Shown here piece by piece: positions 39,431 through 49,852 of a stretch of 64,000 nucleotides of DNA. Numbering within the stretch: the stretch's first letter is position 1; every line of letters begins with the position of its first letter. The stretch covers positions 124,001 through 188,000 of the forward strand of contig NZ_JAMQOQ010000004.1 of assembly GCF_031624635.1 (NCBI RefSeq), written 5' to 3'. Both the position numbers and the translations under genes were made by a program. This DNA is from Halogeometricum sp. S3BR5-2 (GTDB lineage: Archaea; Halobacteriota; Halobacteria; Halobacteriales; Haloferacaceae). The notes under the pieces are model-generated. The model did no database searches. It saw only the letters and a program-made list of their open reading frames with translations, and was not told the DNA's origin.

Positions 39431-40144
39431 GTGATCCGCGTCTGCGAGGACCACGGCCACTTCGAGGGCGACGGCTGTCCGGCGTGCGGCGACGAGGGGC
39501 GGAAGATACTCGACGACGAGCGCCGAACGCGCCTCTCGAAGTTCGTCAGCGGGGCGTTGCGTCACTTTCCCAACGACGCCGGACTGTCGGTCGACGACCG
39601 AGGGTGGACCGAGTACGGGGAACTCGTCGCGGCGGTCACGGAGCGGTACTCGTGGGCGGAACCGAAGCACGTCGAGGCGGTGACCGCGACCGACTCGAAG
39701 GGTCGCTTCGAGCGTCGCGGAGACCGGATTCGCGCGGCGTACGGTCACTCGATAGCGGTGACGCTGGAACCGACCGAGTCCGACGTTCCGGAACGCCTCT
39801 ACCACGGGACCGCACCCCGGAACGTCGGAGCGATACTCGACGAGGGTCTCAAGCCGATGGACCGCCAGCAGGTCCACCTCTCGGAGACGGCCGACGAGGG
39901 GCGCGAGGTCGGCCGGAGACACGCCGACGATCCGGTGCTCCTCGCGGTGGACGCGGAGGCGATGGAGTGCGAGGGATTCGAGGTGGACCGCCGGGGGGCC
40001 GGAACGTACACCGCCGCCCGCGTTCCGCCCGAGTTCCTCGAACGAGTGGACGGCGACGATGAACAGGCGGACCGCGAGGACGAACAGGCAGGCGACCAAG
40101 ACGGACAGGCAGGTGACCAAGACGGACAGGCGGACGACGAGTGA
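39431..40144 (+). CDS. kptA: RNA 2'-phosphotransferase KptA/Tpt1
   Basis: A 237-residue NAD-dependent tRNA 2'-phosphotransferase. The archaeal N-terminal zinc motif is present (CEDH with CPAC). RLSKFVSGALRHFP gives the conserved Arg and His of the RNA-binding lobe, and RLYHGTAPRNVGAILDEGL with VHLSETADEG the NAD-binding lobe. It removes the internal 2'-phosphate left by certain tRNA ligation routes by transfer to NAD. The last 30 residues are an acidic Glu/Asp/Gln repeat beyond the usual domain. The GTG of a longer form of the next gene overlaps its stop. Confidence 0.93.
   Translation: MIRVCEDHGHFEGDGCPACGDEGRKILDDERRTRLSKFVSGALRHFPNDAGLSVDDRGWTEYGELVAAVTERYSWAEPKHVEAVTATDSKGRFERRGDRIRAAYGHSIAVTLEPTESDVPERLYHGTAPRNVGAILDEGLKPMDRQQVHLSETADEGREVGRRHADDPVLLAVDAEAMECEGFEVDRRGAGTYTAARVPPEFLERVDGDDEQADREDEQAGDQDGQAGDQDGQADDE
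40086..40127 (+). repeat. 21-bp tandem repeat in the kptA tail
   Basis: Two 21-bp units (40086-40106 and 40107-40127) match at 20 of 21 bases and encode the repeating acidic tail of KptA (GDQDGQA units). Confidence 0.8.
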
Positions 40145-40221
40145 GACCCCGCGGCGGTACGGAGGCGGCAAACGAGAGCGAGTTCGGTGCCTATTCGGGT
40201 GCCGGCGGAGAACCCGCACCC

Positions 40222-40644
40222 GTGACAGAACTCAGCGCACACCACGTCGGCGTCACCGTCGCGGATCTCGAACAGACCGTCAAATTCTACCGGGACACGC
40301 TCGGGTTCCCCGTCGAGAGCGAGTTCTCCGTCTCGGGCGAGGCGTTCGCGACGGCCGTCGACGTCGAGAGTGCCACCGGTCGGTTCGCTCACCTCGACGC
40401 CGGCGGCGTCCGCGTCGAACTCGTAGAGTACGAACCGGAAGGAGAACGAGAGAGAGAATCGTCGGTGAATCAACCCGGCGCGAAACACCTCGGGTTCTCC
40501 GTCGACGATATCGACTCACTATACGAGTCGTTGGACGGACAGGTCGAAACGCTCAGCGAACCCCGGACGACCGACACAGGTTCTCGGATTCTGTTCCTAC
40601 GGGACCCTGAAGGGAATCTCGTCGAACTGCTGGAGACGTCGTAA
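40222..40644 (+). CDS. VOC family (glyoxalase-like) protein
   Basis: A 140-residue vicinal-oxygen-chelate protein made of two beta-alpha-beta-beta-beta units. Likely metal ligands are a His in AHHVGVTV at the start, the His in KHLGFSV and the Glu in NLVELLE at the end. The family includes glyoxalase I, methylmalonyl-CoA epimerase and dioxygenases. The GTG at 40222 was chosen because the domain starts at once there; the 27 residues from the upstream GTG at 40141 look like linker. Confidence 0.85.
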   Translation: MTELSAHHVGVTVADLEQTVKFYRDTLGFPVESEFSVSGEAFATAVDVESATGRFAHLDAGGVRVELVEYEPEGERERESSVNQPGAKHLGFSVDDIDSLYESLDGQVETLSEPRTTDTGSRILFLRDPEGNLVELLETS

Positions 40645-40726
40645 CCCGGGTCCGCCCTCCTTTCCTGTTCCTCTCTCCTCTACCCTCTCCGCCAGAGGTC
40701 TCGACTTCTCGGGCCAGGTAGTCTCC

Positions 40727-40746
40727 CACCCCACGTTTCCGTCGTT
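40727..40746 (-). repeat. Origin recognition box 1
   Basis: Exact copy of the 20-bp consensus on the minus strand, left of the AT-rich block. Confidence 0.85.
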
Positions 40747-40858
40747 CTTCGTCCGGCGTCTCTCGGTGTTTCCTTTCTCGGTCGTGAGAGGTGCCAGCAG
40801 GCGTTGTTGGCCGCTTCTCCACCTTTCCATTGTTCCCGGTGAAGTGGGGCCACACCCA

Positions 40859-40878
40859 CACCCCACGTTTCCGTCGTT
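40859..40878 (-). repeat. Origin recognition box 2
   Basis: Exact copy of the consensus on the minus strand, 132 bp from box 1. Confidence 0.85.
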
Positions 40879-40896
40879 AACTGTCTCGGGTGGGGA

Positions 40897-40921
40897 GGGG
40901 GAGGCATCGGGCGCCTCCCCC
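40897..40921. repeat. GC-rich hairpin at the edge of the unwinding region
   Basis: A perfect 9-bp stem (GGGGGAGGC with GCCTCCCCC) and a 7-base loop lie between box 2 and the AT-rich block. Confidence 0.75.
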
Positions 40922-41040
40922 GTTAAAATATCTAAAGCGGCTAGTGAACTATTCGTCTCTTATACGTATTAAAGTTGTCTATCCCTTAGCTAGTTTTCTG
41001 GCTAGCTACTACGTGGCTTCTGCCGACTTTTTGTCAAACT
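40921..41040. other. Putative DNA unwinding element
   Basis: The first 60 bases contain 20 G or C by my count, far below the surrounding level. The block is flanked by boxes in opposite orientation, as expected for the melting site. Confidence 0.7.
40987..41008. repeat. Inverted repeat TAGCTAG/CTAGCTA
   Basis: A perfect 7-bp stem with an 8-base loop lies inside the unwinding element. Confidence 0.6.
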
Positions 41041-41099
41041 ATTCTAGAGGAATACTGGTCGAGAGATAGCGGTGAAGACCTACCCGGCCTTCGTGCGGG

Positions 41100-41119
41100 A
41101 ACGACGGAAACGCGGGGTG
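41100..41119 (+). repeat. Origin recognition box 3
   Basis: Plus orientation with one mismatch to the consensus (GCGGGG for GTGGGG), followed by a GT run. Confidence 0.8.
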
Positions 41120-41161
41120 TGTGTGTCACTGAGAGTTTCTCCCCCAACCTTCGAGAGTAAG

Positions 41162-41181
41162 AACGTCGGAAACGTGGGGTG
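41162..41181 (+). repeat. Origin recognition box 4
   Basis: Plus orientation with one mismatch (AACGTCGG for AACGACGG). Confidence 0.8.
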
Positions 41182-41218
41182 GGTGGGTGAGGGGAGAACG
41201 GGATGACGAGAGAACGGG

Positions 41219-41238
41219 AACGACGGAAACGTGGGGTG
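41219..41238 (+). repeat. Origin recognition box 5
   Basis: Exact copy of the consensus, plus orientation. Confidence 0.85.
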
Positions 41239-41442
41239 AGGTGTCGAGAAACGCGGAAACTGAGGTTAAGACGGGAAGTCAACGAAAGGGTAGCGAGTGC
41301 TTCGCTGCCGGTGCTTCGACTGAAGACCGCCGTTCCCCGAGTTCCGCTTTCCTCTCTCGCAGACTCCATCGACTGAACGATACGTCGGTCATAACCGTCG
41401 CTACCCCGACCACCCCCTCCCCTCCCCTCCTCTTTCCCCCGG

Positions 41443-41462
41443 AACGACGGAAACGTGGGGTG
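41443..41462 (+). repeat. Origin recognition box 6
   Basis: Exact copy, plus orientation, followed by a GT run. Two degenerate versions follow at about 41473 and 41550, the latter just before the orc1 TATA box. Confidence 0.85.
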
Positions 41463-41583
41463 TGTGTGTCGGAACGGCGGAAATACGGTATCCGACCGAT
41501 AAGCGACAAAACGCCGAACACGGTACCGAGAGAGTTCTGAACCGAGAGAAACGTCGGAAATTCGGGGCCCCTCCCGGGATGGA

Positions 41584-41592
41584 TTTATATAC
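41584..41592 (+). promoter_or_regulatory. TATA box of orc1/cdc6
   Basis: TTTATATAC is centred about 27 bp upstream of the ATG at 41614, giving a leaderless transcript. A degenerate origin box at 41550 adjoins it, so Orc1 could control its own gene. Confidence 0.65.
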
Positions 41593-41613
41593 GATGGCTC
41601 TCACGACACTGTC

Positions 41614-42873
41614 ATGGAGAAAGATGGGTCACAGGACATCGCCGCGGAGATTTTCGCTCAGGAAGACCCCATCTTCAGGAACAAATCCCTCGTGGAGGTG
41701 GAGCACGTCCCGAGTCCCGAACGAATCGTCGGCCGCGACGACGAGATACGCGCCCTGTCGACCGAACTGCGGTCGGCGGTCAACGGCGACTCGCCGGAGA
41801 ACGTCATCCTGTACGGGGAGACGGGAACGGGGAAGAGTCTGGTCGCAAAACACGTCGCGAAGGCGGCCAAGTCGAACGCCGGCGACGTGCGCATCGGAAC
41901 CGTCTACGTCGACTGCTCTACCGACGACACCGAGACGCAGGCCATCTCCAGCATCGCGCGGACGCTCAACGACGAGGCGGTGACCGACATCCGCGTCCCG
42001 GAGACGGGACTCGCGAAGGCGGCGTACTACACGCGCCTGTACGCCATCCTCGACCAGCAGTACGACGTGGTCATCATCATTCTCGACGAGGCGGACATGC
42101 ATCCGGACGACCAGATTCTCATGTCGCTCTCGCGCGCCGTCGAGACGGGCAAGACCGACTGCCGCATCGGACTCATCGCCATCAGCAACAAGGTCCGGTG
42201 GGCGGAGGACCTGAACGACCGGGTGAAGTCGTCGCTCCAACCGCGCGAACTCAACTTTCACTCCTACGACGCCAACCAACTCCGCGCGATACTCAGTCAC
42301 CGGCGCGACGCGTTCCGCGAGGGCGTTCTCTCCGACGACGTGGTCCCCCTCTGTGCCGCCTACGCGGCGCAGGACCACGGAGACGCCCGGCAGGCCATCG
42401 ACGTCCTCCGAAACGCGGGGATGCTCGCTCAACGGGACGGCTCCGACGTCGTCACCCGCGACCACGTCGAGGACGCGAAGATGGAAGCCGAGAAGGACCG
42501 CTTCCGGGACCTCATCGGCGGTCTGACCGTCCAGAAGAAACTCGTCCTCTCGGCGGTGACGGCGCTCCACAAGGGGACCGACGACGACGAGTTCTCGATG
42601 GCGCAGATCATCGAAACCTACACGAAACTCTGCGAGGCGACCGGAACGTCGACGCGGTCGGACCGCCGCGTCCGCGACTTCGTCCGGCGCCTAGCGTTCC
42701 TCGACATCCTCGAACTTCGGAAACAGAATCTGGGCCGCGCGGGCGGCATCACCATCTACGCCCGCCTCCAACCCGACCACGACCTCGACATCGTCCACCA
42801 GACGGCGATGGACGACGAACAGTTCGTCGTCACGGACTCCGACGCCGAGAACGCCTCGCTCGACTCCTTCTGA
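41614..42873 (+). CDS. orc1/cdc6: Orc1/Cdc6 family replication initiator
   Basis: A 419-residue AAA+ origin-binding protein. Walker A is GETGTGKS (K74), Walker B IIILDEAD (D158, E159), and sensor 1 lies in LIAISNKVRWAEDL. The DARQAIDVLRNAG segment is the sensor 2 region. The C-terminal winged helix covers about residues 300-400, with SDRRVRDFVRRLAFLDILEL. It binds the neighbouring repeats and loads the replicative helicase. It sits between two sets of origin boxes, so it is the cognate initiator of this origin. The start is fixed by the TATA box spacing. Confidence 0.95.
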   Translation: MEKDGSQDIAAEIFAQEDPIFRNKSLVEVEHVPSPERIVGRDDEIRALSTELRSAVNGDSPENVILYGETGTGKSLVAKHVAKAAKSNAGDVRIGTVYVDCSTDDTETQAISSIARTLNDEAVTDIRVPETGLAKAAYYTRLYAILDQQYDVVIIILDEADMHPDDQILMSLSRAVETGKTDCRIGLIAISNKVRWAEDLNDRVKSSLQPRELNFHSYDANQLRAILSHRRDAFREGVLSDDVVPLCAAYAAQDHGDARQAIDVLRNAGMLAQRDGSDVVTRDHVEDAKMEAEKDRFRDLIGGLTVQKKLVLSAVTALHKGTDDDEFSMAQIIETYTKLCEATGTSTRSDRRVRDFVRRLAFLDILELRKQNLGRAGGITIYARLQPDHDLDIVHQTAMDDEQFVVTDSDAENASLDSF

Positions 42874-42922
42874 AGCCCCCCTTCTTCGCCACCCTCTCGT
42901 CCCGACTGGCATCCGGTCGGCC

Positions 42923-42942
42923 CACCCCGTGTTTCCGACGTT
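42923..42942 (-). repeat. Origin box behind orc1 (a)
   Basis: Minus orientation with three mismatches to the consensus, 50 bp after the orc1 stop. Confidence 0.65.
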
Positions 42943-42997
42943 TTCTCGGCGCGTCGACCGTTCTCCCGGCGCCCGCTGACGACCGCTTCTCGGAGGA

Positions 42998-43017
42998 CAC
43001 CCCTCGTTTCCGTCGTT
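42998..43017 (-). repeat. Origin box behind orc1 (b)
   Basis: Minus orientation with one mismatch (GAGGGG for GTGGGG). The remaining bases to 43229 hold no gene I can support. Confidence 0.75.
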
Positions 43018-43260: not shown

Positions 43261-45594
43261 ATGACTCGGTTGAGAAAACTGCTGCCGGGACGTATCCGCG
43301 CGAGTTACGCGCTCACGTTTCTGGCAGCTATCCTTGCGATTCTAGTCGTGATGGGAAGCATCTCGGCGTACGCGTACACGAACAGCCAATCGACGGTGAG
43401 AGAGCATGCATCGGACGAGATTCTCAGTTCCGCGCAGTTGGAGGCGGGACAGGTGTCCACGTGGGTGGACCAGCGCGAACAGACCGTCGAGATGCTCTCG
43501 GAGTATCAAGTGATGAAGACGGAAGACCCGGAGTCGGTGAGTCTCTTCCTCGCCGGTGAGATGGACTCCGTACCCGAGGACGTCCACACCGTCCACTACG
43601 TCGAGGCGTCGACGAACACCGTCCTCGCGAGCACGGACGTCGCCGCAATCGGTCGGTCGTACACCGGCGCGGAGGCCGCGTGGGCGGCCTCCGAGCGAAC
43701 CCTCGCCGACGGCGACGAGGTGTACCGGTCGGACGTCTACCGGGACGGGGACGTGCCCACTCTCTCGTGGGTTTCGCCCGTCAACGGTCACGAAGACTAC
43801 CTCGTCGTCGTCAGCGCCGACGTCTCCGCCATCTCCTCGCAGTTGCACTCCAGCACCGAAGGGAGCTTCAGCATGGTCGTCGACACCGGTGACGGCGAGG
43901 TCATGATGGACGAACGAAACGAGGCTATCACCGAACTCTACACGCTCGGAATGGACGCCGAGGTGATTCAGAGCGGCGCCCGCGGTGAGTCGGGCATTAT
44001 CGAGATGGAGCCGGTTGCGGACCTGCTCGACGAACCGTTCCTCGTGGGCTACGCGCCCGTCGAAGGGACGGACTGGATAGTCACCGTGAACGTTCCGGAG
44101 GCGTCCGCCTACGCCGTGGCGAACGGCGTCGGCCGCGACTTCCTCGTCCTCCTCGGCACCGCGTTCGCGGGCCTCGCGTTCCTCGGCGCCACAATCGGTC
44201 GGAGCACCGTCGCGTCCCTGAAGGACCTCCGGTCGAAAGCGAGGGAACTGGAGGCCGGGAACCTGGACGTCGACGTGGCGACCACGCGCGAGGACGACAT
44301 CGGACAGCTGTACGAGGCGTTCGGGTCGATGCGCGATACGCTCCGCGAGCGAATCGAGGAGTCGACGCGCACGACCGAGCACCTCGAACGGCGGGCCGCG
44401 GACTACAGCACCGTCATGACCGCCTGCGCGGACGGCGACCTGACCCGCCGTCTCGACCCGGACGACGAGAACGAGGCGATGCGGAGCATCGCGGAGTCGT
44501 TCAACACCATGATGGACGAACTCGAGGGAACGGTCGTCCGAATCAGACGGTTCGCCGACGAGGTCGCCGCCGCGAGCGAGCAGGTGACGGCGAGCACCGA
44601 CGAGATTCAGCGCGCGAGCGAACAGGTCAGCGGTTCGGTCCAGGAGATATCCGCCGGCGCCGCGCGACAGAACGACAGTCTCGCGTCGGTCAGCGACGAG
44701 ATGACGTCGATGTCGGCCACCATCGAAGAGGTCGCGTCGTCCGCCTCGGAGGTGGCGACGACCGCCGAAGGCGGCGTCGAACGCGGGACCGACGCGCGGA
44801 CCCACGCGACGAACGCCATCGACGAGATGAACGCCATCGAGACGCGCACCGACCGCCGGGTCGACGAGGTGGAGTCGCTCGAAGCGGAGATAAAACGCAT
44901 CAGCGACATCGTCGAGATGATAGACGACATCGCCCAGCAGACGAATCTCCTCGCCCTCAACGCCTCCATCGAGGCCGCCCGCGCGGGCGAGGCGGGCGAG
45001 GGGTTCGCCGTCGTCGCCGACGAGATAAAGACGCTCGCCGGCGAAGCGAGCGACGCGACCGACCAGATCGAGGCGCTCATCTCCCACGCCGTCGAGTCGA
45101 CCGAGAAGGCCGCTTCCGACATGCACGACACCGGCGAGGACGTCTCGAACAGCGTCGACGTGGTGGAACGAGCGCTCGTCGCCGTCGAAGAGGTCGTCGA
45201 GGCGTTCGAGGAGACGAACCGCGGCGTCCAGGAGATAGACGACACCACCGAGGAGCAGGCCAGAACGACCGAACAGGTCGTCAGCAGGGTCGAGGAGGTG
45301 GCGCGCATCAGCGCCGAGACGACCGACGAGACCCAGCAGGTCTCGGCCGCCTCGGAGGAACAGACCTCCTCGCTGACCGAAGTCTCCACCAGCGTCCGGT
45401 CGCTGGCGGACCAGGCCGAACGGCTCCACCGACTGCTCGGTCAGTTCGTCGTCGGTGACGCCGGAACGTCGCCGTCGCCGTCCGCGGACGGCCGGTCGGC
45501 CGCCGCGGTGAACGAACGGGTGTCCCCGGCGACGGACGGTGGGTCCGACCGCGCCGCCCCGACCCGGCCGGCCCGCCCCGACCGCCGGTCGTAA
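43261..45594 (+). CDS. Methyl-accepting chemotaxis transducer
   Basis: A 777-residue chemoreceptor. A first membrane helix lies near residues 15-38, an extracellular dCACHE-like sensor domain follows to about residue 285, then a second helix ([20 protein letters not shown]). Two HAMP-like segments follow. The long helical signalling domain has the conserved hairpin tip [21 protein letters not shown]. It signals to CheA through CheW. No other chemotaxis genes are in the window. The ligand is not predictable. The C-terminal 50 residues are a low-complexity tail. Confidence 0.92.
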
Positions 45595-47939: not shown

Positions 47940-47959
47940 CACACCGGGTTTCCGTCGTT
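47940..47959 (-). repeat. Distant origin-box-like copy
   Basis: On the minus strand 17 of 20 bases match the origin-box consensus, about 5 kb from the last box behind orc1. The surrounding 293 bp (47932-48224) contain no gene and end with a TATATAA box of the next gene. Confidence 0.4.
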
Positions 47960-48547: not shown

Positions 48548-49033
48548 TCAGCGCTCTTCTTCGAGGCGGGAGCGGACGTCCCCGGCGTCGAGTTCGTCGA
48601 CCGCTTCCAGTCCGAGCGAGACGACGAGCGGGTAGAAGTGGCGGTTCTTCTCGAACGACTCCTCGTACTCGTACTCGTATTCGGCCTTGAGGATGGAGTA
48701 GGCGCGGTCCAAGTCCCGTCGAATCCCGTGCGGGAGGTACATGTAGGTCGGTTTCTGCTCGTCCTTGACCGAGAGTTTCGGTTCCTCTTCGCCCGCCCCG
48801 TCCGGTTCGCCCGCCCCGTCCGTTTCGTCCGTCTCCCCGCTTTCGTCCGGTTTTGCCGTCCCGTCCGGTTTTGCTGTCTTTTCGGTCTCATCCGTCTCGC
48901 TCGGCTCGCTTTCCCCACCGGCTTCCTCCGCGTCTTCTCGGTCCTCCGCCCCCTCCGACTCGCCCGTCAGGGCTCGGTCTCGGGCGCGCTGACGGCGACG
49001 ACGGAGGCGGTCCGCGCGGTCCTCGCCGCTCAT
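48548..49033 (-). CDS. ParA partner protein with C-terminal DNA-binding-like part
   Basis: A 161-residue protein whose ATG overlaps the parA stop (ATGA). Residues 1-20 are very basic (RLRRRRQRARDR). Residues 25-85 form a low-complexity acidic linker of repeated Lys-Pro-Asp, Glu-Thr and Gly-Ala units. The C-terminal part has PTYMYLPHGIRRDLDRAYSI and YPLVVSLGLEAVDEL, resembling a short ribbon-helix-helix-like dimerisation unit. Its position suggests the centromere-binding partner of ParA, but it is not a classical ParB. Confidence 0.72.
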   Translation of the reverse strand: MSGEDRADRLRRRRQRARDRALTGESEGAEDREDAEEAGGESEPSETDETEKTAKPDGTAKPDESGETDETDGAGEPDGAGEEEPKLSVKDEQKPTYMYLPHGIRRDLDRAYSILKAEYEYEYEESFEKNRHFYPLVVSLGLEAVDELDAGDVRSRLEEER

Positions 49034-49830
49034 GCTTCGACCTCCCGTCCCTCGATGCCGAACTGCTCGTCGAGGTCGGCGGCGATGTCGCGGAACACCT
49101 CGCACATGTCGGACTCGGGGTTGAACTCGAGCAGCGAGACGCCCGCGTCGAGGGCCTTCTGTACGTCCGCGCGTTCGCGAATCTGCCACACCGGCACGTC
49201 GTCGAAGGCGGCGTTGATCCACTCGACCATCTCGCGCGCCTGCGTCTTCCGCACGTCGATGCGGTTGACGACGACGCCGCGGTCGTGGATGTCTATCTCG
49301 TAGTCGTACTCCAAGGCGTCCACGTGGTCGAAGAGGAGCTCGAACGCCCGCTTGGATGTCGACTCCGCGAGGGCGGGGATGAGGACGTTCTGCGTGGCGA
49401 ACAGGGCGTTGTCCATGAGGTTGCCGAGGTTGGGCGGGCAGTCGACGACGACGTAGTCGTAGTCGTCCTCCACCTCGCGCAGGACGAGCGACAACTGTTC
49501 GCCGCTCCGACGCGCGAGCGTCAGTTCCGGTTCGGCGGCGGTCATGTCGATGTTCGAGGGAATGACGTCCATCTCCTCGTGCTCGCGGACGATTTCGGCG
49601 ACCGTCTCCCGCTCTTCGGGGTCCGTGAGGCAGTCGAACAGCGTCGGCGGTTCGTCGTCGTACGCGTCCATCAGACCGAGGTTCTCCGTCGCGTTCCCCT
49701 GCGGGTCCAAGTCGACGAACAGCACGTCGTGCCCGCGGGCGCTTATCGCGCCGGCGACGTTGATGGCGATGGTCGTCTTTCCGACCCCGCCCTTCTGGTT
49801 CGAGATGCAGAGTTTTGCCGGGCCACTCAT
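49030..49830 (-). CDS. parA: ParA family partitioning ATPase
   Basis: A 266-residue ParA/Soj ATPase. The deviant Walker A KGGVGKTT lies at residues 13-20, the DLDPQGNAT motif near residue 47 and VVDCPPNLG near residue 135. It should polymerise on or move over the nucleoid to segregate the replicon. The ATG at 49830 is backed by a TATA box at the right distance, so the seven residues encoded upstream are dropped. It is the first gene of a two-gene operon with the partner at 48548 and lies 7 kb from orc1. Confidence 0.93.
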   Translation of the reverse strand: MSGPAKLCISNQKGGVGKTTIAINVAGAISARGHDVLFVDLDPQGNATENLGLMDAYDDEPPTLFDCLTDPEERETVAEIVREHEEMDVIPSNIDMTAAEPELTLARRSGEQLSLVLREVEDDYDYVVVDCPPNLGNLMDNALFATQNVLIPALAESTSKRAFELLFDHVDALEYDYEIDIHDRGVVVNRIDVRKTQAREMVEWINAAFDDVPVWQIRERADVQKALDAGVSLLEFNPESDMCEVFRDIAADLDEQFGIEGREVEA

Positions 49831-49852
49831 ACGGTACGGCTTTCCCGTCAAA

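Follow-up and report, generated by a model that had tools for sequence, protein, structure and literature searches.

A likely Orc1/Cdc6-dependent origin serving a conserved secondary replicon of Halogeometricum

The window, a stretch of 64,000 nucleotides from contig C4 of Halogeometricum sp. S3BR5-2, carries an intact orc1/cdc6 initiator gene on the forward strand (41614-42873), coding for a protein of 419 residues with AAA+ (lid) and C-terminal winged-helix (Cdc6_C) domains, which matches TIGR02928 with 405 bits (cut-off 181) and is related to archaeal Orc1 proteins of solved structure (2v1u and 2qby). The gene directly adjoins an array of repeated boxes. On the 5' side of the origin region, kptA/tpt1 (RNA 2'-phosphotransferase) and a VOC/glyoxalase-type gene occupy window positions 39431-40644, in an order kept in the relatives that cover this stretch; on the far side, a gene for an MCP-type transducer (43261-45594) lies between orc1 and an AAA gene, a place from which it is absent in four relatives. 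A parA-like partition ATPase (49030-49851, reverse strand), 7-8 kb from the origin, is the genome's best match to PF13614 and is origin-linked in all five genomes compared. Rfam gave no matches in the window.

Boxes were located with the 20-bp query AACGACGGAAACGTGGGGTG, using 100 dinucleotide shuffles of the window as chance level, none of which contained a match. Against this query, four of the eight boxes of the origin (ORB 1-8) are exact, three have one mismatch and one has three. The left arm consists of the exact ORB 1 (40727-40746), found at the same position in G002, and the exact ORB 2 (40859-40878), kept in G001-G004 and adjoining an AT-rich block, both on the reverse strand. The right arm, on the forward strand, comprises ORB 3 (41100-41119) and ORB 4 (41162-41181), with one mismatch each, and the exact ORB 5 (41219-41238) and ORB 6 (41443-41462), all four also backed by comparison with relatives. 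Between the arms, the AT-rich block of 156 bp (40923-41078; GC content 0.40 against 0.667 for the window) is the presumed unwinding element. Box strand flips across this block, and the G-run end of every flanking box faces outward, away from it; the terminal GGGGTG, the halophile G-string, is present in all eight boxes. On the 3' side of orc1/cdc6, ORB 7 (42923-42942, three mismatches) and ORB 8 (42998-43017, one mismatch) lie on the reverse strand, at the same position in five and four of the five genus genomes, respectively. The array had been described from the sequence-only reading as four exact and four near copies surrounding the AT-rich block and orc1, with a switch of orientation at the block and boxes behind the gene, and was recovered in every one of these respects.

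Several smaller elements had been overlooked. A G-rich inverted repeat, GGGGGAGGC-7 nt-GCCTCCCCC (40897-40921; 9 of 9 pairs), lies just inside the left arm, and just inside this hairpin follows a conserved element, AAAGCGGCTAGTGAACTATTC (40934-40954, forward strand; genus form GCGGCTACTGGACTATTC), delineated by comparison of Halogeometricum with Haloferax and new relative to the earlier description. Two degenerate promoter-proximal boxes, AACGGCGGAAATACGGTA (41473-41490) and AACGTCGGAAATTCGGGGCC (41550-41569), both on the forward strand, have counterparts in Haloferax promoters, where that of the second adjoins the TATA box. The TATA box of orc1, TTTATATA (41584-41591, forward strand), lies about 25 bp 5' of the start codon and is conserved in relatives; as judged from the sequence, the transcript is probably leaderless. 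A further isolated box with three mismatches (47940-47959, reverse strand) lies between the origin and parA.

For comparison within the genus, five genomes were used, the source genome and G001-G004, the named relatives being Halogeometricum pallidum and H. limi. Orc is present in all five at 97-99% identity, with neighbour genes at 60-91%. In an alignment of the source genome with G004 and G002, identical columns amounted to 95% in the boxes, 80% in the hairpin and 78% in the promoter, against 28% in the spacer and 31% in the AT block; the pattern is that of selectively conserved boxes. All five genomes retain the hairpin, which in G001 is altered on both sides of the stem (GAGAAGC/GCTTCTC versus GGGGAGGC/GCCTCCCC). 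Position and orientation of the rear box pair are shared by four genus genomes, and G003 has one of the two; in the relatives the pair sits within a short convergent spacer. An alternative in which the rear boxes and the AT-rich stretch at 43.13-43.26 kb form a second half-origin was rejected; the stretch came with the MCP gene, since the alignment to G002 and G004 breaks off just past the rear boxes and picks up again at the AAA gene.

Replication polarity was analyzed by GC skew. Over 400 kb of contig C4, the cumulative skew peaks at C4 position 165,299, inside the origin. Of 320 positions compared, the origin shows the largest left-right step in skew after removal of its intergenic region from the calculation (block-permutation p 0.0014). 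Gene orientation was rejected as the cause, as the step persists in genes on both strands and in non-ORF DNA. The polarity, a maximum, equals that at oriC1 of the same genome on contig C5 and at an origin on C3. In G004 the cumulative maximum falls within 0.3 kb of the origin, and the skew of G001 (right side only) and G003 agrees in sign with that of C4; the peak-height test was not significant in G001, G003 and G004, where the origin is near the end of the contig or examined stretch. The skew switch supports long-term use of the origin, as a record of past and not of present use.

The box-core pattern has 13 matches genome-wide, all of them on C4, which makes up 9% of the genome; across the genus, the matches in each of the five genomes are restricted to the origin's own contig. 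C4 carries a single Orc, and no second orc-linked origin was found on it; the Orc of oriC1 is on C5. No box-core matches were found near the other orc genes of the source genome, whose loci show other repeats. In G001, the ends of a 387-kb contig are the two halves of the origin, and this contig is therefore a circle; a second Orc is encoded on it as well. The G004 contig (444 kb) closes through a dovetail of 106 bp between its end and its start, in which one base is mismatched. For G003 the end overlap of 89 bp falls in a tandem repeat and is ambiguous, and no end overlap was found for the source genome's own C4. A circular replicon apart from oriC1 is thereby indicated for G001 and G004 and, by orthology only, for C4, which is presumably the same replicon.

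Other features of the contig were recorded alongside. A single intergenic box, AACGTCGGAAACGAGGGG, lies at C4:339289 (L008:1501-1520), about 100 bp 5' of a dehydrogenase E1 gene. G004 and G002 have this box at the same site and in the same orientation, and its distance to the origin is 130-175 kb. A box-core match within a coding gene (C4:278797-278814) is kept in G004; as its flanks there are 96% identical, it is probably preserved as coding sequence rather than as a binding site. In four of the five genomes, the secondary replicon encodes a second ATP-dependent DNA ligase (C4:337434-338987), the other copy being on another contig.

Taken as a whole, the data indicate that the origin very probably belongs to a conserved megaplasmid or secondary replicon of about 0.3-0.44 Mb and not to the main chromosome. 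That C4 is instead a piece of the chromosome, and the origin that of the main chromosome, we regard as unlikely: the long syntenic flanks within the genus, the second ligase together with two predicted tRNAs on the contig, and the missing end overlap of C4 itself would fit such an assignment, yet the orthologous contigs close in G001 and G004, oriC1 is on a different contig, box-core matches never occur off the contig, and ParA is linked. The earlier proposal of a replication origin is thus upheld by the canonical array, unwinding block and initiator, by the skew peak and by box conservation, with the amendment that it probably serves not the main chromosome but a secondary replicon, about 0.4 Mb in size.

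By its anatomy, the locus is a haloarchaeal orc/cdc6-adjacent origin of a known kind (PMC3528665). All testable defining features of that class were found: an adjacent orc, an AT-rich element flanked by at least two inverted ORBs, the G-string, and within-genome specificity of the box. Some origins of the class likewise have boxes on both flanks, and the boxes of the class differ between the paralogs of one genome; the Halogeometricum origin differs by its local hairpin and the GCGGCTACTGG element, and by the inversion of the orc gene with respect to the origin in Haloferax. Outside the genus, the closest Orc found is 71% identical and is encoded on plasmids and contigs of Haloferax. As this lies below the 80% identity limit for Orc families (Wu et al., 2012, PMC3528665), the Halogeometricum protein appears to form a separate family.

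The oriC1-cdc6A origins (PMC3936714) share the G-strings of the ORBs, a G-rich repeat inside the ORBs and the polarity of GC skew, but the C4 Orc is 41% identical to the compared part of oriC1's Orc, and the Halogeometricum repeat is one hairpin beside one arm, while that of oriC1 has two arms inside opposite ORBs; in Haloarcula hispanica oriC1, the G-rich repeat is an enhancer (PMC3936714). Identity with the ancestral oriC1 was rejected, the C5 Orc matching Sso Cdc6-1 with 293 bits (over a shorter stretch) and the C4 Orc with 195 bits. Haloarcula hispanica oriC2-cdc6E, with its downstream ORB-rich oriC2D (PMC3936714), resembles the present arrangement in having the origin 5' and ORBs 3' of the gene, with two rear boxes here versus 11 there. 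Orc4-type plasmid origins (Halobacterium pHS2, Halorubrum pHLAC01, Haloterrigena pHTUR01) have a near-identical box and the same - - / + + layout 5' of the gene, but their Orc is 51% identical, below the 80% criterion (PMC3528665), so that the C4 origin was not assigned to this type; they also have four to six tandem forward boxes 3' of the gene and, unlike Halogeometricum, no clear GCGGCTACTGG element. These rear boxes lie directly 3' of the gene, many at a spacing of about 28 bp (L051:3720-3824, L052, L053). A box unique to the C4 Orc was therefore rejected: the specific box sequence claimed earlier holds within the source genome, but not across genera, where a near-identical box accompanies an Orc of 51% identity.

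In the Haloferax origins, the strong boxes lie 3' of the orc gene in the layout - - / +, and the reverse complement of this rear region shows the order of the Halogeometricum core: box, G-rich hairpin, AT stretch, GCGGCTACTGGACTATTC, boxes. A similar hairpin occupies the same place, and the GCGGCTACTGGACTATTC element has 17 nt identical between G002 and the Haloferax genome G037; in H. larsenii the element is too diverged for the search used. As the core has the same order in both genera, the frame of the origin would be the same and the orc gene inverted beside it. The TATA box and the two degenerate boxes next to it were found in both Halogeometricum and Haloferax, and the promoter boxes therefore appear to have moved with the gene. 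This gene-borne move is, at the level of sequence, the best argument for a role of the degenerate boxes at the promoter and not in firing.

In the mechanism we propose, the adjacent Orc would bind the inverted ORBs flanking the AT-rich block, whose G-run ends point outward, and melt the block, with the hairpin repeat and the GCGGCTACTGG element as putative accessory sites, and would then load MCM. Through the degenerate boxes beside the TATA box, the initiator may control its own transcription; the literature searched gave little on archaeal initiator autoregulation. For the rear boxes, a role as titration sites, or a relic status, is more plausible than membership of the firing core. By analogy with the ORB-rich region 3' of Haloarcula hispanica cdc6E, where boxes following the gene of oriC2 were tested as initiator titrators (PMC3936714), the pair may titrate the initiator.

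A functional, bidirectional, Orc1/Cdc6-dependent origin of the conserved secondary replicon (about 0.3-0.44 Mb) is, in our estimate, very likely. Boxed origins can be dormant, as are oriC4 of Haloferax mediterranei (PMC4595724) and oriC4/oriC5 of Haloarcula hispanica (PMC3528665), and the same anatomy in these cases would allow for an origin that is intact and conserved, silent in normal growth, and fires only if other origins fail. We consider this slightly less probable again than a chromosomal assignment, as the skew switch needs long-term firing, the origin is the sole orc-linked one found on its contig in three genomes, and Orc is conserved in all five species at 97-99% identity, unlike the dormant oriC4 of Hfx. 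mediterranei with its patchy distribution and variable context (PMC4595724). Least of all do we expect the boxes to be mainly transcriptional operators of orc1 with no origin present. The two degenerate boxes at the TATA box, conserved in two genera, would suit operators, but an interpretation of this kind is very hard to reconcile with six strong boxes, up to 0.9 kb distant, that surround a low-GC block, with the switches of box polarity and replication skew, and with the Haloferax core of boxes, hairpin and element, which sits 3' of the gene with no orc promoter there.

Going beyond the origin assignment, we put forward tentatively, and with rather more doubt than confidence, that the initiator gene and its promoter boxes were inverted beside a fixed core (ORB, G-rich hairpin, GCGGCTACTGGACTATTC, ORBs) between Halogeometricum and Haloferax; that this rearrangement sets the autoregulatory boxes apart from those for firing and defines a conserved element of the origin that is new; and that single boxes, which occur on this replicon only and as far as about 230 kb off, could also bind the initiator and serve to count or time the replicon. 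The two genera would then provide a natural experiment, in which the same core lies 5' of the gene in one and 3' in the other while two weak boxes stay at the promoter. The locus is the likely replicator of a genus-wide megaplasmid; it is compact and experimentally accessible, and the natural inversion of the gene would make autoregulation of the initiator directly testable.
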